Translations under genes and position numbers: made by a program
The notes under the pieces: generated by a model
The model's database searches: none
The model's input: the letters and a program-made list of their open reading frames with translations, nothing else
What the model was told of the DNA's origin: nothing
From: Meira nashicola
Taxonomy: Eukaryota; Basidiomycota; Exobasidiomycetes; Exobasidiales; Brachybasidiaceae
Assembly: GCA_001600355.1 (NCBI GenBank)
Contig: BCJU01000001.1
Coordinates: 3,121,178 to 3,185,177, forward strand
Direction of reading: 5' to 3'
Length of the DNA: 64,000 nt
Shown: one piece after another, positions 40,601-47,253 of the stretch
Layout: each line of letters starts with the position of its first letter
How positions within the stretch are numbered: the stretch's first letter is position 1

Positions 40601-40739
40601 CTCCTCGTTCGAGCAAAGGATATGGAGAAGCTGGTGGCATTGGTCTATTGCTCTCGATGAACGGATACATGCTGGGTCCATTGAATCGATTCGAGCCCTC
40701 CGCATTTCGAGCTTGACCACCTTCAATATTATTGCTCAT
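37695..40739 (-). CDS. Zn2Cys6 transcription factor with fungal-specific regulatory domain
   Basis: A 1014-residue intronless regulator. The zinc cluster is at residues 99-129, with Cys 99, 102, 109, 119, 122 and 129 (spacing 2, 6, 9, 2, 6), preceded by a basic KKKAKKRRR patch. The middle homology domain (about 330-640) is clear: a FDYYFRWLHPLLPILHE block, FTVLAISSRFF, IRAIFDIGLHTEKAYVGYTP, and RRRTFWAAFTLDSILCLNMGRPFGL, the hallmark of the Fungal_trans family. Both tails are Ser/Pro/Gly-rich. Target genes unknown. The arrangement resembles carbon- or amino-acid-metabolism regulators, but family membership alone does not decide. Confidence 0.95.
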   Translation of the reverse strand: MSNNIEGGQARNAEGSNRFNGPSMYPFIESNRPMPPASPYPLLERGARMNEEIRSDAAGLPNVVENSQNAYSAEQEEREEENDSNKKKAKKRRRVVVACDTCRRKKVKCEGLPNPSNTCNNCENMGYTCSFTVEPDRSRGRYEILESQKDTLLTALRSVAPELASQFERGDLHITSPMGSKAENNGDTARKEGEKAIPSESKAHDDQFQHSVSDTSGTEHNPMVPDLEDGRPRYFGGSSTFGNISGLESRPTSPPSQNKKSLQEAGSSIQATQYTHPQEGKRPRSSSVTAKNNFSVLPSPMPQFPRNSMMWVRELRRKTLVAVGRDDIYASEGWFQRFHFPPSELLNELFDYYFRWLHPLLPILHESSLRRDLQNGRADRDSAFRGLIFTVLAISSRFFKDDPRVLADPKDPESAGDHWSSASRFYHQVYAASLINVQVLILSCAFMPASLGVGTSWTVLGAAIRAIFDIGLHTEKAYVGYTPFEQERRRRTFWAAFTLDSILCLNMGRPFGLRLEDCSVKYPIMCSEDALSESERTGGRIEEMRIDDTTPSFTGGYIHLIKGGLLIRQVIASIYQPAKTAATYNGFASSPSYKDMTIMCKKIDEWISEFPSYLHDVRTTPYPILCAFLQSGKANLRLYTLKPFIYDVRATGLPSNDDSILRKMLLPQCANHARSTLRALRELQQIRGISISYFFLHQSFLSASTFILTIWHGTNDKDMLLEDSDIIEFSLEVYNQQSRFASVLVQRAHRILRNIALRCLPLLTDDERRRRMQELLRQSGVLGGGIAPATLNAIGQSGVDIGSRSANRYHSESIATEGGYQGRSAHSPLSNSTQTASMQSYNGQNATYPSNFAVPISQHSPFKRPPSRSDSDRGRTSVPSVINGDYMSHSSMSGQYVPVWNRMSGGERSGGIQNTHEINQSSLHSSSPLRPQHTSSLDVIGNTPFNIEDFQSQIGDDLGTGMQSFQFNGDLSWTDYFDRFLGGLPDPSIGRSASVGGSPSNSAGMMNPFSLNDR

Positions 40740-41035
40740 TCTTGTAAAAATATCATCTTTTGATTCATCGCATCTTTACTTTCGAAGATGATGATAAAAG
40801 AAGTTGTTTTATGCATTCTTTATGCGGGGTTACACTATATTTTCTTTCCTATACGTAGGCACTTAGTCGTGTTAATTGTAGTGCAAAGGCAGTTTGCGTG
40901 CGAAAGGATGTGCAAACTTTATTACTGGCCGCCGCGAAGAAATGCACTCAGTCACGCGCCTGTCCGTTTAACCAAATGAATAGACTAAATGCAATTCGAA
41001 GATCTTGCACACCATCACAAACGGAAATCAACAGT

Positions 41036-41598
41036 ATGGTCTACATAAAGCGATGGGCTGAGTTCCATTCTAAATGTGTAGATCTATACAAGCAATCACC
41101 CAATGATGTAAGTCGATCAAGTGGACGATGAACTTTCTTTTTTCAAACAAGAAACTCATACAAATTAAGACTTCTTCTTTTCTCCTTCATTAGACCCGCT
41201 ACCTTATCAAAGCCACACCATCACAGCAATGGCTTGTCTTGAAAGTGACAGACGATCAGACTGTAAGTTTTTTTGGTGGAATTTAATCATTGTTGCTAAA
41301 CTTGTGCTGATACTTTCATCTCTTGCTACAGTGTCTTAAATTTAGAGCAAGATCCGCAATTATTATTAATAGATTCGAATCCTTTACCCGCGATATGACA
41401 GCACTCATGACAGGCTTGCCACTACCTTCAGAAGCAGCAGCACTAGCAGCTTCATCAAAAGCGACACAGAATGCCATGGATATAGATACAGAAGCTACTG
41501 GAGCAGCAGATTCAACAAACAAACCAATTGGTACTGCACCAGGGAATGCTGCAGCTGGCGGAGCAAATAAGAAAAAGAAGAAGAAGGGCAAAAAGTGA
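41036..41598 (+). CDS. Signal recognition particle subunit SRP9
   Basis: Forms the Alu-domain part of SRP with SRP14 and supports elongation arrest. Three exons: 41036-41107, 41194-41262, 41332-41598, with introns of 86 and 69 nt. Product 135 residues. The fold is recognisable from MVYIKRWAEFHSKCVDLYKQSP (the WEEF-like start), TRYLIKATPSQQWLVLKVTDDQT, then CLKFRARSAIIINRFESFTRDM. The tail is Ala/Gly-rich and ends in a Lys-rich stretch (KKKKKKGKK), typical of fungal SRP9/SRP21 proteins. Only the third exon is visible as a long open frame. Confidence 0.93.
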
Positions 41599-41759
41599 GA
41601 AAATTTCGAGCAATCCAAAATGTACATCATCTGCAATTATACTTTGATATTTTCATGAGAGATGTGAGGATAGTAGGAAAAATTCGCATGATTAGGGATT
41701 GGTATACGCATATGATTTAAATAGACTATGAAGATATGCCATACAAATTTGGCAATCTT

Positions 41760-44621
41760 TTACAATTTAAAGGCTTCACGATACCAGGCTTCTTCTTCTT
41801 CCAATGATCTCTTAATGTTTTCACTTTTTCTGAAACCATGACCTTCACCCTCAAACTCAATGTACTTTGTCTTGACGCCTTGTTTCTTTACAGCTTCATA
41901 GATTGTCTTGTTTTGTGCTGGTGGAACTACTTTATCAATCTCTCCTTGTAAGATAAGTAGTGGAGAACGGATACGATCTGCCATATAAATCGGAGAACGA
42001 GATTTATAAACTTCTGGAATCTTTTCTGGAGGTCCTCCCATTAATTGGTTGACATATTGTGATTCGAATTTGTGCGATTCAGCTGCAAGATCAGCTATGT
42101 TGGAAACACCAAAGTAGTCAGCTCCTGCTCCGAATGCATATGGACTCAAACAAAGAGCAGCAAGAACGGTATATCCACCAGCAGAACCACCGCTGATAGC
42201 AATCTTCTTTGGATCAGCAAGAGGAGGAACGGTAACTGTGGAAGTACCCTCTACACCAAACAAGACTGGATATATGGTGCGATAGACTCGTTCGACTACT
42301 GGCAAACCTGGAAGTAGGTTTGGAAAGAGCACTTGTAGTTTATTGCCGTACGATGATGTTGGAGTGGAAGCTTTCTCAGATGCGAGGGTACTACCGGGAG
42401 TCTTTGTCGCAACGGCAATATAATCAATCACCTTCCAACGATGAATTGATTCTTTCGTGAATACATCCAAAATTGCATCTCGAGGAATCAGCTTTGTGTT
42501 GGAACTTGTAGTGATGAGATTTGACTTTTCGAGTGACTTGGATAGTTTTGGGAGGTGGAAGCCTCGGATTGTACTCAATTGAATACCGATATTTGGCATC
42601 ACTAATGCACTTTCGCTCTGAACACGTGTGACATGACGCAGAAGCCAAGTCAAACCTCCAGCAACGAAGGCAAAGCGAGCATCAAAATTTGGGATAAATG
42701 AAGAAGCGGCTCCAACCGTTGTTCCGATCAACACATTAGTAGCAGTCTCCAGCCATGAGGCTTGTTTTTTGAGTGAGAATTCTACAGCACCATTAGTCAT
42801 TTGCTTTTGCTCCAAAGATACATTCTGCAGCTGTGCCTTTGAATCGATTCGTCTGGCCGCCTTCTTATTTCCTTCTCCATGATCCGAAGCTCCAAGATAA
42901 TTTGCTGCGGCGATCGTATCGCGGACATCCACAACGCCCCATTGAGCCATCAAACGATTCATAAATTCTCTACCGAAACTTGTACTTCCTCCATAATTGA
43001 CTTTACAGAGTGCATATCCACGCGATGTCCAATAACTTGTCGATAGATCTAGTCCCGGTGTAGAATGACTGGTTGGTCCACCGTGAATTTTCATAATACA
43101 AGGTGGAGACGTACCAGCTGGTGCCACATAATCGGGATTGCCCGGTAAGAAAAGTAAAGCATGCGAAGTAGACTTTTTACCGTTGGGCAATTCCGTGGGA
43201 AATTCAATAGGTTCACACTTTGGTAAGAATGTAGGTGGAATTGTGCCATCTTCAATAATGCTAGAGCTTCGCTTGATGACGTGCCAAGTCGGCTTTCCAT
43301 TCACAGCTTTGAGGGCTTCGACCAAATCCAAAACTATCAGTGAATTTGGTTGGCTTGCTTCAGTAGCACGAAAGACGACAGAGTGAGGGCCAGCTACCTG
43401 TAATGCATAAATGTCCACAAAGGGTGTATCCAATTGCTTTACTTGTCCTGTAGGAATGTGCAACAAATTCAAGGAGCTGTATGCGTGGGAAGTGACGATG
43501 CATACTAGCCAATCTGGTGATAGTACAACAAAGTCCGAATTTCCCAATGACCATGGCGGACTAGAAAAGTCCCCTTCGAACGGCTTGGCAAGCAAAGGTT
43601 TGAGATTGTTGATCTCAAGGTTGGTTTTATCGCTGTTTATGCTTACTTTCCATGGATTAGAGAATCCGCTATTGTCTCGGGTAAAGTACAATGTATCGCT
43701 GTTAGCCCAAACGGGATGCCTTGCGACTTCGTCAGTGTTATTACCGCACACTTTCTTGTCCACTGCAAAGCTTGGTTGATCGTTTTCCAGTACAAATTTG
43801 GCAACCCATAATTCTGTCGCCCAAAATGGCATACTTGGGTGATTCCAAGCAACATAGGCCGCATATTTACCATCTGCAGAGAAACGGGGTGATGTGTAAA
43901 AGTCATAACCTTGCGCAACTGTATAGACTTTTCTTGTTTGGATGTGAATGGCAACAAGTGTATTTACCACCTTTGATGGCTCGTCAAACGTATGATCTTC
44001 TTGAATGGCCAAAATGTATGGCAGAGTAGGATGTTTGCTGAAATCTGCATAACGTAATGCTTTGTTGTCTTCTGTGATTTGACGCACGTTACCTTTTCCA
44101 TCAGCAGTGAAAATATTAAAAGATTTGTAGTCTGTAAAAACGGCAACGCCATCCTCATATTTGGCTACCGCACCACCACCATATTCGTGTACGCCAGAAC
44201 GTACATTATATTCTCCTTTTGATAAATCTGAATTGCCTTCTAATAACACACCGCTACGAGCTGATTCTAGTGAATCCAAACGAATCGTTTGTTTTACGAA
44301 AGCAGCACGACCGCTTTCTTCAGGTCTATTTTCCACATAGGCAACTTCCGCTGAATTTTCATCAGATGATAACACTACAATTTCTCCGAACGAGACACTC
44401 TTTTGTGTTAATATATCAGCAGTAATTGGTGATTTCCATGTACCATATGTGGCCACAGTCTTGCCAGCCATTGTGAAAGATGTTGAGCGAAAATATCTTG
44501 TACGAAAGAATGAATGATTCGAAGGAACGATGGAGGATTTAAGTGAAGAAGATGAAAAGAAGGAGAGGCGATGTTGATTTTGAAGGGTGAGAGGACGTAA
44601 CAAAACGGGCTTACTCCTCAT
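41760..44621 (-). CDS. S9 prolyl-oligopeptidase-type serine peptidase with embedded PIG-H domain
   Basis: One frame of 953 codons. N-terminus: Ser/Arg-rich 1-50, mitochondrial-like, then a second start at Met51 (44471). Residues 55-470 form a beta-propeller-like domain (YGGGA, SPRFSADGKYAAYVAWN, DTLYFTRD). The alpha/beta-hydrolase part starts at 500 (IMKIHGGPTSHS, VNYGGSTSFGREF). It is interrupted after about 580 and resumes at 802 with KKIAISGGSAGGY (nucleophile Ser813), LLILQGEIDKVVPP (Asp896) and GEGHGF (His928). These match acylaminoacyl-peptidase/DPP5-like S9C enzymes. The intervening residues 605-790 resemble PIG-H (Gpi15): a hydrophobic hairpin, then ESALVMPNIGIQL, IPRDAILDVFTKESIHRWKV and PGLPVVERVYR. 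No stop interrupts it. Confidence 0.9.
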   Translation of the reverse strand: MRSKPVLLRPLTLQNQHRLSFFSSSSLKSSIVPSNHSFFRTRYFRSTSFTMAGKTVATYGTWKSPITADILTQKSVSFGEIVVLSSDENSAEVAYVENRPEESGRAAFVKQTIRLDSLESARSGVLLEGNSDLSKGEYNVRSGVHEYGGGAVAKYEDGVAVFTDYKSFNIFTADGKGNVRQITEDNKALRYADFSKHPTLPYILAIQEDHTFDEPSKVVNTLVAIHIQTRKVYTVAQGYDFYTSPRFSADGKYAAYVAWNHPSMPFWATELWVAKFVLENDQPSFAVDKKVCGNNTDEVARHPVWANSDTLYFTRDNSGFSNPWKVSINSDKTNLEINNLKPLLAKPFEGDFSSPPWSLGNSDFVVLSPDWLVCIVTSHAYSSLNLLHIPTGQVKQLDTPFVDIYALQVAGPHSVVFRATEASQPNSLIVLDLVEALKAVNGKPTWHVIKRSSSIIEDGTIPPTFLPKCEPIEFPTELPNGKKSTSHALLFLPGNPDYVAPAGTSPPCIMKIHGGPTSHSTPGLDLSTSYWTSRGYALCKVNYGGSTSFGREFMNRLMAQWGVVDVRDTIAAANYLGASDHGEGNKKAARRIDSKAQLQNVSLEQKQMTNGAVEFSLKKQASWLETATNVLIGTTVGAASSFIPNFDARFAFVAGGLTWLLRHVTRVQSESALVMPNIGIQLSTIRGFHLPKLSKSLEKSNLITTSSNTKLIPRDAILDVFTKESIHRWKVIDYIAVATKTPGSTLASEKASTPTSSYGNKLQVLFPNLLPGLPVVERVYRTIYPVLFGVEGTSTVTVPPLADPKKIAISGGSAGGYTVLAALCLSPYAFGAGADYFGVSNIADLAAESHKFESQYVNQLMGGPPEKIPEVYKSRSPIYMADRIRSPLLILQGEIDKVVPPAQNKTIYEAVKKQGVKTKYIEFEGEGHGFRKSENIKRSLEEEEAWYREAFKL
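42252..42809 (-). other. PIG-H (GPI-GlcNAc transferase subunit) module inside the S9 peptidase frame
   Basis: Residues about 605-790 of the peptidase frame. They follow the PIG-H order known from human PIGH and yeast Gpi15. First comes a short soluble start, then a hydrophobic hairpin (about 626-662). Next is the LLV...GIQL strand, then a loop and IPR..I.DV..(N/T)E.I..WKVI.Y, and finally a VLFP..LPGLPVVERVYR end. PIG-H is part of the ER complex that makes GlcNAc-PI, the first step of GPI-anchor synthesis. The length (about 185) equals a complete PIG-H. It has its own possible Met (608) but no stop before the peptidase resumes. Confidence 0.82.
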
Positions 44622-44841
44622 GTATGTTCAACAACAAGACCTGTTTGAGAGAGAATGGTATGTAACATTTGACTCATAAAAACCCTTGTCTTCTAACGCC
44701 GAAATGCAAGCTAGGTAAATGCACTTTCTCGCACGGGCCTTATGTGTATCTTTTTAGGAAAAGTGTTGTTCTCATGCCAATTTCACTTACAACCAACTTG
44801 TATTCTCACTGCTCATAGCTCGATTGGGTTGAAGATTCGTC

Positions 44842-47253
44842 ATGGTGGACATGGAAGAGGGTATAAGGCAATTGGTGGACATTTTAGCATGCGATTCGAA
44901 TGAAGCTCGTAGAATACTTCAGCACTATGAAGGCGATCCGGAACGCGCAATTGATGCATATTTTAATGGCACGATTCCTTCTGCATCCACCGCAGCGGCG
45001 AATGATGTTAACCAATATCAACAGGCCGTTGTACCATATCAAGCACCTAATGAAGTTGCAGATCATACAATGCAGCCTATTCCCATTAAAAATACAGCAC
45101 AAGATCAATCTGCAGGATGGGATGCTCCAAATTCATTTATAGGTCCAAAGACACCGCCACCTTCTCAGAATAATACGACTTCATGGGCCGATCGAGCAAG
45201 CGAAGGAATTCGTAGAAGTGAACGCAATGCGAAAAAGAGATCATCTCCGATCGATTTAACAGGAGATGATGAAGACGAAGATCTTCGAAAAGCTATGCAA
45301 GCATCTTTAGAAAGTGAATCGAATCGTCAAAAGAGACATCAGGAGTACGGCATAGGAGAACATGAAAATAAACAAAATGGAGGTGCGATACATGGAGTGA
45401 ATGCGGACGAAGAAGCTTTGAATAGAGCAATTGAAGCAAGCATGCTTCAAAGCTCTTCCAACACTCGAGATCAAACACCTGCACTATCGAGCAGCTATCT
45501 TGATTCGATAGCAGGAAATCAAATCCGTTCGAATGATAAACCCGTCGGCATCGTTCCGCCACTCCCATTCATGCGTATTTTTGCATTGGCACTTCAAGCA
45601 TTGTATGCTTCAGAACCATTTCGTGATGCTATGTTAGCCGTACAATTCACCGATATCAGAATAACAGAAGCAAACGGGCAAGGCCTAGAAGATCTCATGA
45701 CAGATTATTGGCGTGGCAAGAGTCCAGCGAATATCAACAAACCTACAGGAGAAGTGTGGGTAAAGAATGCAATCTCTACAAATGAGCAACATTTTATCGA
45801 TATCTTTATGCGTCTGATGACCTTGTTCGCCTTTATGACCTACACCAAACGATCGGTTGTAGTTGCCGAAGATGTGATCACACATAGTCCATTCCGAAAT
45901 AATTACGCCTACGTGATGAACAGCGAACGCAAGCCGCCGCACGATATCCTTTCTTGTTACGTTCAGGGCCTACTGGATGCTATGATTAATGTGAGCACCG
46001 AATTGGAGAAGCGATCGCCGCAAATCTGTGATTCAAAATCGTTCAAGAAGACTTTTCAATCTTTCACTGTCAACGCAGTTGCACCACAAAAGGATGAAGA
46101 TCAGCTCAAAAATCCCAGAAAACCTCGTGGCGATCCATATGAATCAGTCTTGCATACACTAATGCAAACAAATACAAATAATACAGTTTATCGTGCTTTA
46201 TACTCAACTTTAGCAGATGAAAAAACGTTGTATTCCATGCCTGCAGAAAGCCTTTTCTTTTCTTTGGGCAGACCAGGTCTGTACAATCCTAATTTTGCAG
46301 CAGGATGGCAAGCGAACGGAGTAGAGGATGTCGAGTCATCCTTTACGATCGATCCTGTGATTTTCTTGGACGCATTTATGTTTCATCGTCGAAATGGCGT
46401 ACAGTTGGGATTGGACCCTGTTGATATTAAACAACGTCAAAATCGCATAGAAGAACTCGAAAAATACAAAAAGGCAATCGTCATGCACGAAGGGGAGGAT
46501 ATCCGTTTAAATTTACGTGCGAGCATTGAATATTTTCAAAGTCTATGTGTCGACGACGGAAGTGATTCATTACGAACGTCAAGTCTGGATGAAGCGGGTC
46601 CACGATTAGAAGCAATCCTTGCTCATTTAGAAGAAGAGATTACAAAAGTTGATTCATTATTGGCTGAAGAGAAAGCTGCAGTTGAAAAAGCAAGATCGAC
46701 GATTTTAGCAGAATTTGAAGAAACAATAGCAAATCCTAAATACCAAACTATGGCTTATAACCTTCAAGCAATTTTGGTAGACGATGGCATTGATGATGCA
46801 TGGGCGTACGTCTATCAACAAAATGATCAAGGCGGAGAGGGTAAGTGGTGGAAGATATGTGCAGGTGAGGTAACGCAAGTGGACCAGAGTGATGTTCTTA
46901 AAGAGAAGAACACAATCAATTTCCTTGTTTATTCAGCCACTGATGAAACGAAACGGGTATTAGCAAAACTTCGTTCATCTTCCGATAAAGATAATGATGT
47001 CATGTTATTGGATGATGAAACAGCCAAAGACGAACTTCCAAGGCGATCAAGTGAGTCGAATCATTGGTTATTAAAGCAACCATTGATTGAGGCTATAGAA
47101 TATGATAATGCCTCTTTTGGTAGGCAATTGGCGGGCGAGATACCAATTTCGACTGATGCGCCGTTTGCAATTCAAGGAATTGCCAATTCGGCGAATGCCA
47201 CAGTCGAGAATGAGACCAGTAAAGAAGATGAACAGATGACAATTGAACATTAG
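44842..47253 (+). CDS. UBA-UIM ubiquitin-binding protein with degenerate USP domain (pseudo-deubiquitinase)
   Basis: An 803-residue intronless protein resembling USP25/28-type enzymes. UBA domain at 5-43 (LVDILACDSNEARRILQHYEGD). Two ubiquitin-interacting motifs at 144-160 (EDLRKAMQASLESES) and 188-204 (EEALNRAIEASML). The USP-like region starts at 233, where PVGIVPPLPFMRIFALALQALY aligns with the usual GLxNxGNTCYLNSLLQ Cys box, but Cys and Asn are gone. The His box at 642-658 reads LQAILVDDGIDDAWAYVY instead of GHYWAY, so the catalytic His is also absent. A coiled coil (590-630) lies between. It can bind ubiquitin but is not expected to cleave it. Confidence 0.82.
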   Translation: MVDMEEGIRQLVDILACDSNEARRILQHYEGDPERAIDAYFNGTIPSASTAAANDVNQYQQAVVPYQAPNEVADHTMQPIPIKNTAQDQSAGWDAPNSFIGPKTPPPSQNNTTSWADRASEGIRRSERNAKKRSSPIDLTGDDEDEDLRKAMQASLESESNRQKRHQEYGIGEHENKQNGGAIHGVNADEEALNRAIEASMLQSSSNTRDQTPALSSSYLDSIAGNQIRSNDKPVGIVPPLPFMRIFALALQALYASEPFRDAMLAVQFTDIRITEANGQGLEDLMTDYWRGKSPANINKPTGEVWVKNAISTNEQHFIDIFMRLMTLFAFMTYTKRSVVVAEDVITHSPFRNNYAYVMNSERKPPHDILSCYVQGLLDAMINVSTELEKRSPQICDSKSFKKTFQSFTVNAVAPQKDEDQLKNPRKPRGDPYESVLHTLMQTNTNNTVYRALYSTLADEKTLYSMPAESLFFSLGRPGLYNPNFAAGWQANGVEDVESSFTIDPVIFLDAFMFHRRNGVQLGLDPVDIKQRQNRIEELEKYKKAIVMHEGEDIRLNLRASIEYFQSLCVDDGSDSLRTSSLDEAGPRLEAILAHLEEEITKVDSLLAEEKAAVEKARSTILAEFEETIANPKYQTMAYNLQAILVDDGIDDAWAYVYQQNDQGGEGKWWKICAGEVTQVDQSDVLKEKNTINFLVYSATDETKRVLAKLRSSSDKDNDVMLLDDETAKDELPRRSSESNHWLLKQPLIEAIEYDNASFGRQLAGEIPISTDAPFAIQGIANSANATVENETSKEDEQMTIEH

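Follow-up and report, generated by a model that had tools for sequence, protein, structure and literature searches.

PIG-H (Gpi15) is a small protein, 203 residues long in Histoplasma, that forms a membrane hairpin with both of its ends in the cytosol. S9 peptidases of the prolyl-oligopeptidase family, of which the solved chain 7c72, the aminopeptidase 3azo, and unfused fungal homologues of about 650 residues are the representatives closest to the present case, combine a propeller with a hydrolase domain and carry a catalytic triad and the motifs HGGPT and GGSAGG. In the alpha/beta-hydrolase fold, the loop before the nucleophile strand faces away from the active site and the propeller. Domain insertions in enzyme loops are known, with a foreign domain placed in a surface loop and the enzyme otherwise intact. 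GPI synthesis begins on the cytosolic side of the endoplasmic reticulum (ER), and PIGH is essential for the activity of the mammalian GPI-GlcNAc transferase (GPI-GnT) (PMC7125958). In yeast, deletion of GPI15 is lethal (PMC6559964).

The gene that we describe here brings these two families together in a single frame. It lies in a window of 64,000 nucleotides of the Meira nashicola genome, and its features are as follows.

41760..44621, minus strand: the whole fused gene, an uninterrupted frame of 953 codons, from the reading of open frames
44469..44621, minus strand: N-terminal extension, residues 1-51, Ser/Arg-rich and devoid of acidic residues, from alignment A1
42894..44468, minus strand: N-terminal part of the S9 peptidase, residues 52-576, comprising the propeller region and the first half of the hydrolase, from the PDB relatives 3azo and 7c72
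42216..42893, minus strand: the insert, residues 577-802, in the loop preceding the nucleophile strand, from the lengths of fused and unfused proteins
42624..42758, minus strand: candidate hydrophobic hairpin (weak), residues 622-666, from Kyte-Doolittle windows, with putative membrane insertion
42324..42611, minus strand: PIG-H domain (PF10181), residues 671-766, from the Pfam match
42261..42719, minus strand: stretch that aligns with stand-alone PIG-H, residues ~635-787, including the LFPNLLP motif, from hhalign
41760..42215, minus strand: C-terminal half of the hydrolase domain, residues 803-953 and the stop codon, with PF00326 at 801-952
42183..42185, minus strand: codon of the catalytic Ser813 (in GGSAGG), invariant in the alignments
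41934..41936, minus strand: codon of the catalytic Asp896, invariant in the alignments
41838..41840, minus strand: codon of the catalytic His928, invariant in the alignments

PF10181 matches the 953-residue protein with 44.6 bits, above its cut-off of 25 (E 1.3e-11; positions 1-66 of the 67 in the model), and PF00326 matches it in two stretches, the best at 801-952 (E 4.2e-37) and the other N-terminal to the insert (C1:3164053-3164226 in the genome profile scan). With both families significant in one frame, the first-pass annotation, which had proposed a PIG-H domain embedded in an S9 peptidase, is confirmed: a PIG-H domain is nested in-frame within an S9 serine peptidase. The whole fused protein has a full-length match at one place in the 17.9-Mb genome. 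All matches of the fused protein in an NCBIfam scan fell far below their cut-offs, and the S9C subfamily named in the first-pass annotation stays a tentative label.

The arrangement recurs in other fungi. Residues 560-830, used as a query, matched 19 proteins, made up of the species' own copy, 17 proteins with both Pfam domains, and a Sympodiomycopsis protein whose PIG-H match lies under the cut-off. Using the peptidase part alone (residues 60-590), 3529 proteins were found among the best 8000 candidates scored. In the best 120 of these 3529, 24 carry the insert, 22 with a PF10181 call and two, P0009 and P0025, with scores below the cut-off (21.7 bits, E 1.8e-4, and 23.0 bits, E 6.8e-5, respectively); the other 96 have no PF10181 call, and 95 of them measure 556 to 678 residues. 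The remaining one, a partial record of 1363 residues from Astraeus odoratus (P0031), holds two unfused copies one after the other and may be a gene model in which two genes were joined. Altogether, 32 fused-type proteins were retrieved, 19 by the insert search and 13 more by the peptidase search. Alignment A3 contains 28 retrieved fused proteins plus the window's own protein, which replaces its copy P0002, and 12 of the 96 insert-less proteins; P0017 and P0019, two Ustilago proteins closely related to retained rows, and P0028, which at 759 residues lacks the C-terminal half, were dropped. Three stand-alone PIG-H proteins complete A3 and are excluded from the loop and tree counts (P0131 was omitted as near-identical to P0130).

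Sixteen named organisms have the fusion among the matches listed. A taxonomy look-up places Acaromyces, Malassezia, Violaceomyces, and Tilletiaria in three classes of Ustilaginomycotina, and we assume that the remaining named organisms belong to this subphylum as well, so that the fusion is common to the Ustilaginomycotina sampled. Twelve named fungal proteins among the matches listed, including those of Tulasnella, Trametes, and Sporobolomyces, have no PF10181 call (eight of them are in A3); the fungi concerned presumably all lie outside Ustilaginomycotina. Tilletiales and Moniliellomycetes are represented by no name among the matches listed.

That the insert is PIG-H is supported by profile comparisons. 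When 13 inserts were compared with four stand-alone ascomycete PIG-H proteins by hhalign, residues ~635-787 aligned with a probability of 98.3 (E 2.1e-14), reaching residues 77-199 of the 203 in the stand-alone protein and leaving the first 76 unaligned. At E <= 0.01, a profile built from the same four proteins recognized 27 of the 29 inserts, with the insert of this species at 1.1e-4 and the two that were missed at 0.017 and 0.97. As controls, none of 580 shuffled inserts (best E 0.77) and no peptidase part among 41 (best E 1.7) was recognized. PF10181 matched 32 of the 44 members of A3, a figure given as a total alone, which is the number expected if the 29 fused and three stand-alone proteins match and the 12 unfused ones do not; the individual calls available are in agreement. 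The core motifs of PIG-H, including the IPRD-like and LFPNLxP motifs, are found in the same order within residues 635-787, and conservation within the insert is highest in three PIG-H motif blocks (0.60, 0.57, and 0.64, compared with 0.24 to 0.42 in the linkers). The original suggestion of a PIG-H of full length needs correction: profile-profile homology extends over ~635-787, the Pfam match itself spans 96 residues, and for ~605-634, which would hold the N-terminal strand and the first hydrophobic stretch, the assignment relies on position alone. A sequence search of PDB chains for PIG-H found none. When the inserts were used to look for stand-alone PIG-H, four ascomycete proteins and no basidiomycete ones emerged from the best 8000 word-sharing candidates scored, an insensitive search that is uninformative about stand-alone PIG-H in basidiomycetes.

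The peptidase around the insert appears complete. The triad of Ser813, Asp896, and His928 shows no variation among the 19 rows of alignment A1 or the 41 peptidases of A3, in line with the intact triad described before, and the HGGPT and GGSAGG motifs are shared with the S9 relatives. By sequence homology to 3azo, whose residues 4-495 match residues 56-577, the N-terminal beta-propeller is present. The alignments with 7c72 and 3azo run to residue 576/577 and resume at 801; between these points the solved chains have four and three residues, respectively, and the fused protein about 223. The interval equivalent to Leu576-Asp803 measures 199 to 276 residues in 29 of 29 fused proteins but 6 to 10 in 12 of 12 unfused ones in A3. 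These values bear out the earlier placement of the insert in a loop that has few residues in relatives (3 to 10 against 199 to 276). Judging from the PF00326 matches on both sides of the insert and the conserved triad, the flanking halves are those of one S9 peptidase and still make a single hydrolase domain, as had been proposed. The insert should leave catalysis possible, since the loop is on the side opposite the active site and propeller. Further S9 peptidase frames are clustered at G000:C2:3.24-3.29 Mb and C1:868-880 kb, indicating an expanded family.

When the insert is left out, a tree of the peptidase part unites the fused proteins in one clade with a single change (SH-aLRT 100 in a quick search without bootstrap). 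Distances between inserts correlate with those between peptidase parts (rho 0.76; none of 2000 permutations was as high), as expected if both had travelled together. On this tree, the fusion is the outcome of a single insertion in an ancestor of the sampled Ustilaginomycotina that was retained in three classes. A recent insertion was rejected: the base composition of the insert resembles that of the remaining gene (GC3 0.37, compared with 0.28 to 0.37 in the remaining frame), and the sole 14-base direct repeat (41742 and 43791) lies ~460 and ~900 bases off the borders.

A hydrophobic stretch is positioned as the PIG-H hairpin requires but is weak in M. nashicola, where the best 19-residue mean on the Kyte-Doolittle scale is 1.04, compared with 2.28 to 2.71 in three stand-alone PIG-H proteins and up to 2.46 in fused relatives; the region is also poorly conserved (0.38 to 0.44). 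Compared with its stand-alone counterparts, the PIG-H described here thus differs both in residing inside another enzyme and in its weaker hairpin. The cytosolic location of both ends, assumed from the outset, fits an AlphaFold3 model of the human complex, in which PIGH is part membrane and part cytosolic and contacts PIGA and PIGQ (PMC12182360). It agrees less well with the low hydrophobicity of the hairpin and with the 76 unaligned residues of PIG-H.

The genome of M. nashicola encodes much of the pathway in which PIG-H would operate. A PF10181 scan, run exon by exon so that an intron-split copy could escape, found one significant place, the fused gene, and no second at E <= 0.001, which, within the reach of such a scan, speaks against the other PIG-H/GPI15 that the first-pass annotation had asked about. 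A candidate at C1:1137349 was rejected (E 0.8, internal stop). A search with the stand-alone PIG-H P0130 gave no match in this genome and missed even the fused copy, which shows it to be too insensitive to be of use. Matches were obtained for PIG-A, GPI2, GPI1, PIG-L, and the GPI8 family (Peptidase_C13), and for PIG-P in two neighbouring places; PIG-A, GPI2, and GPI1 have long open frames. The PIG-A gene (G000:C1:3105216-3105488) shares its contig with the fused gene, at a distance of ~57 kb.

As site and tree show for the sampled proteins, an S9 peptidase gained its PIG-H (GPI15) unit a single time, in the loop preceding the nucleophile strand. We propose that the inserted PIG-H reaches into the ER membrane from the cytosol and serves as the H subunit of GPI-GnT, which starts GPI synthesis. 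The peptidase would thereby sit beside the transferase, tethered on the cytosolic face of the ER. We infer the role as H subunit because the fused gene holds the sole PIG-H match found, the pathway is present, and the core motifs are conserved. In other words, one gene would encode a single bifunctional protein that is tethered to the ER and acts both as GPI-GnT subunit and as peptidase, a reading that we consider quite probable and from which ER location, GPI-GnT membership, and peptidase activity are predicted. The fused gene would then probably be indispensable through its PIG-H part.

Whether the two activities would also communicate is a separate matter. Possibly, the first enzyme of GPI synthesis in Ustilaginomycotina carries a working peptidase within its H subunit whose substrates at the ER surface are peptides or the complex itself, so that GPI synthesis and peptide turnover would be coupled. 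We regard this extension as rather doubtful. Alternatively, within the bifunctional reading, the fusion may be a neutral accident, PIG-H having become hostage to a peptidase gene while both parts work independently and uncoupled. To us the chances of this version seem evenly balanced. In the 12 aligned unfused relatives, a short loop occupies the site, which would be tolerant of insertion, and no sign of coupling is seen in the present data. Escape from such an arrangement might seem easy, and yet no unfused version or stand-alone PIG-H from a named member of the Ustilaginomycotina occurs among the matches listed, a counterpoint that depends on best-candidate listings and on the insensitive search for stand-alone PIG-H.

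The PIG-H part might also have lost its role in GPI-GnT and persist as a mere tether or structural insert, the transferase running without PIG-H. A sole copy does not force a function, since PIG-H is absent from some eukaryotes (PMC6559964; PMC2446393). The weak hairpin of M. nashicola and the faster divergence of the insert, with a mean pairwise identity of 0.33 compared with 0.49 for the peptidase, would fit such a loss. A mere structural insert is less easily reconciled with conservation that peaks precisely at the PIG-H motifs, with PF10181 being detectable across the fused set, and with the lack of any other significant PIG-H in a genome where the four other subunits searched are present. 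We therefore consider this alternative unlikely, although the weak and poorly conserved hairpin region has raised its standing very slightly and lowered that of the bifunctional protein to the same small extent.

Alternative splicing into two products, an insert-less peptidase and a PIG-H, appears highly improbable. Introns do seem to be present in the genome, as read by eye in the gene at 41000-41600, and two loose in-frame GT..AG pairs would remove 582 and 618 bases (donors in codons 570-612, acceptors in 765-806). Both pairs, however, share one poor acceptor, which lies in the conserved ADPKK strand only 14 bases downstream of a branch-like site; no donor-like GT[AG]NG[TAC] was found in codons 560-640, and the insert is an open, conserved frame in the aligned relatives. 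We thus find no convincing signal in the sequence for splicing out the insert. A conserved internal start was likewise rejected, as Met608 is shared with P0003 and absent from the other 17 rows of A1. An assembly error or read-through joining two genes can be dismissed, given an uninterrupted frame and the identical architecture and site in many independent genomes.

The N terminus deserves separate mention. Residues 1-50 are rich in Arg and Ser and lack acidic residues, which is reminiscent of mitochondrial targeting sequences. The extension is shared with the near relative P0003; differing ones are present in P0008, P0012, and Acaromyces P0021, and many relatives begin near residue 51 (MAGKTVA...). 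Conceivably, this N terminus could send some of the protein to mitochondria, and a dual start with a dual location is possible. Next to the fused gene and convergent with it, a small plus-strand gene at 41000-41600 with apparently two short introns resembles SRP9 on visual inspection. Scans with Rfam (40700-45000) and for tRNAs were empty.

In conclusion, the component families are known, and their nested arrangement is new as far as our literature search reaches. Consistent with the initial impression that no case had been described, no title or abstract found mentions the fusion in a search that left subscription journals and preprints mostly outside its coverage. The domain pair is already visible in public databases; what was missing, within the reach of this search, is a description. 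Relative to loop insertions in general, the guest is of an unusual kind, apparently an ER membrane glycosyltransferase subunit as judged from its family, and the insertion is common to the sampled members of a subphylum. On the present sample, it is more than the curiosity of one genome: a nested insertion that arose once, long ago, and has persisted across Ustilaginomycotina.

In summary, two unrelated functions have apparently been locked in one gene since an old common ancestor of a group to which crop smuts and the skin yeast Malassezia belong. The fusion could serve as a molecular signature for Ustilaginomycotina, and it cautions against annotation by name, which misses the sole PIG-H match found, some records being labelled dipeptidyl-peptidase V. 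It also offers a natural case of the size of insert that a hydrolase fold tolerates beside its nucleophile. Furthermore, the fusion makes it possible to test directly what PIG-H does, about which little is known, and whether GPI synthesis and peptide turnover may be linked.
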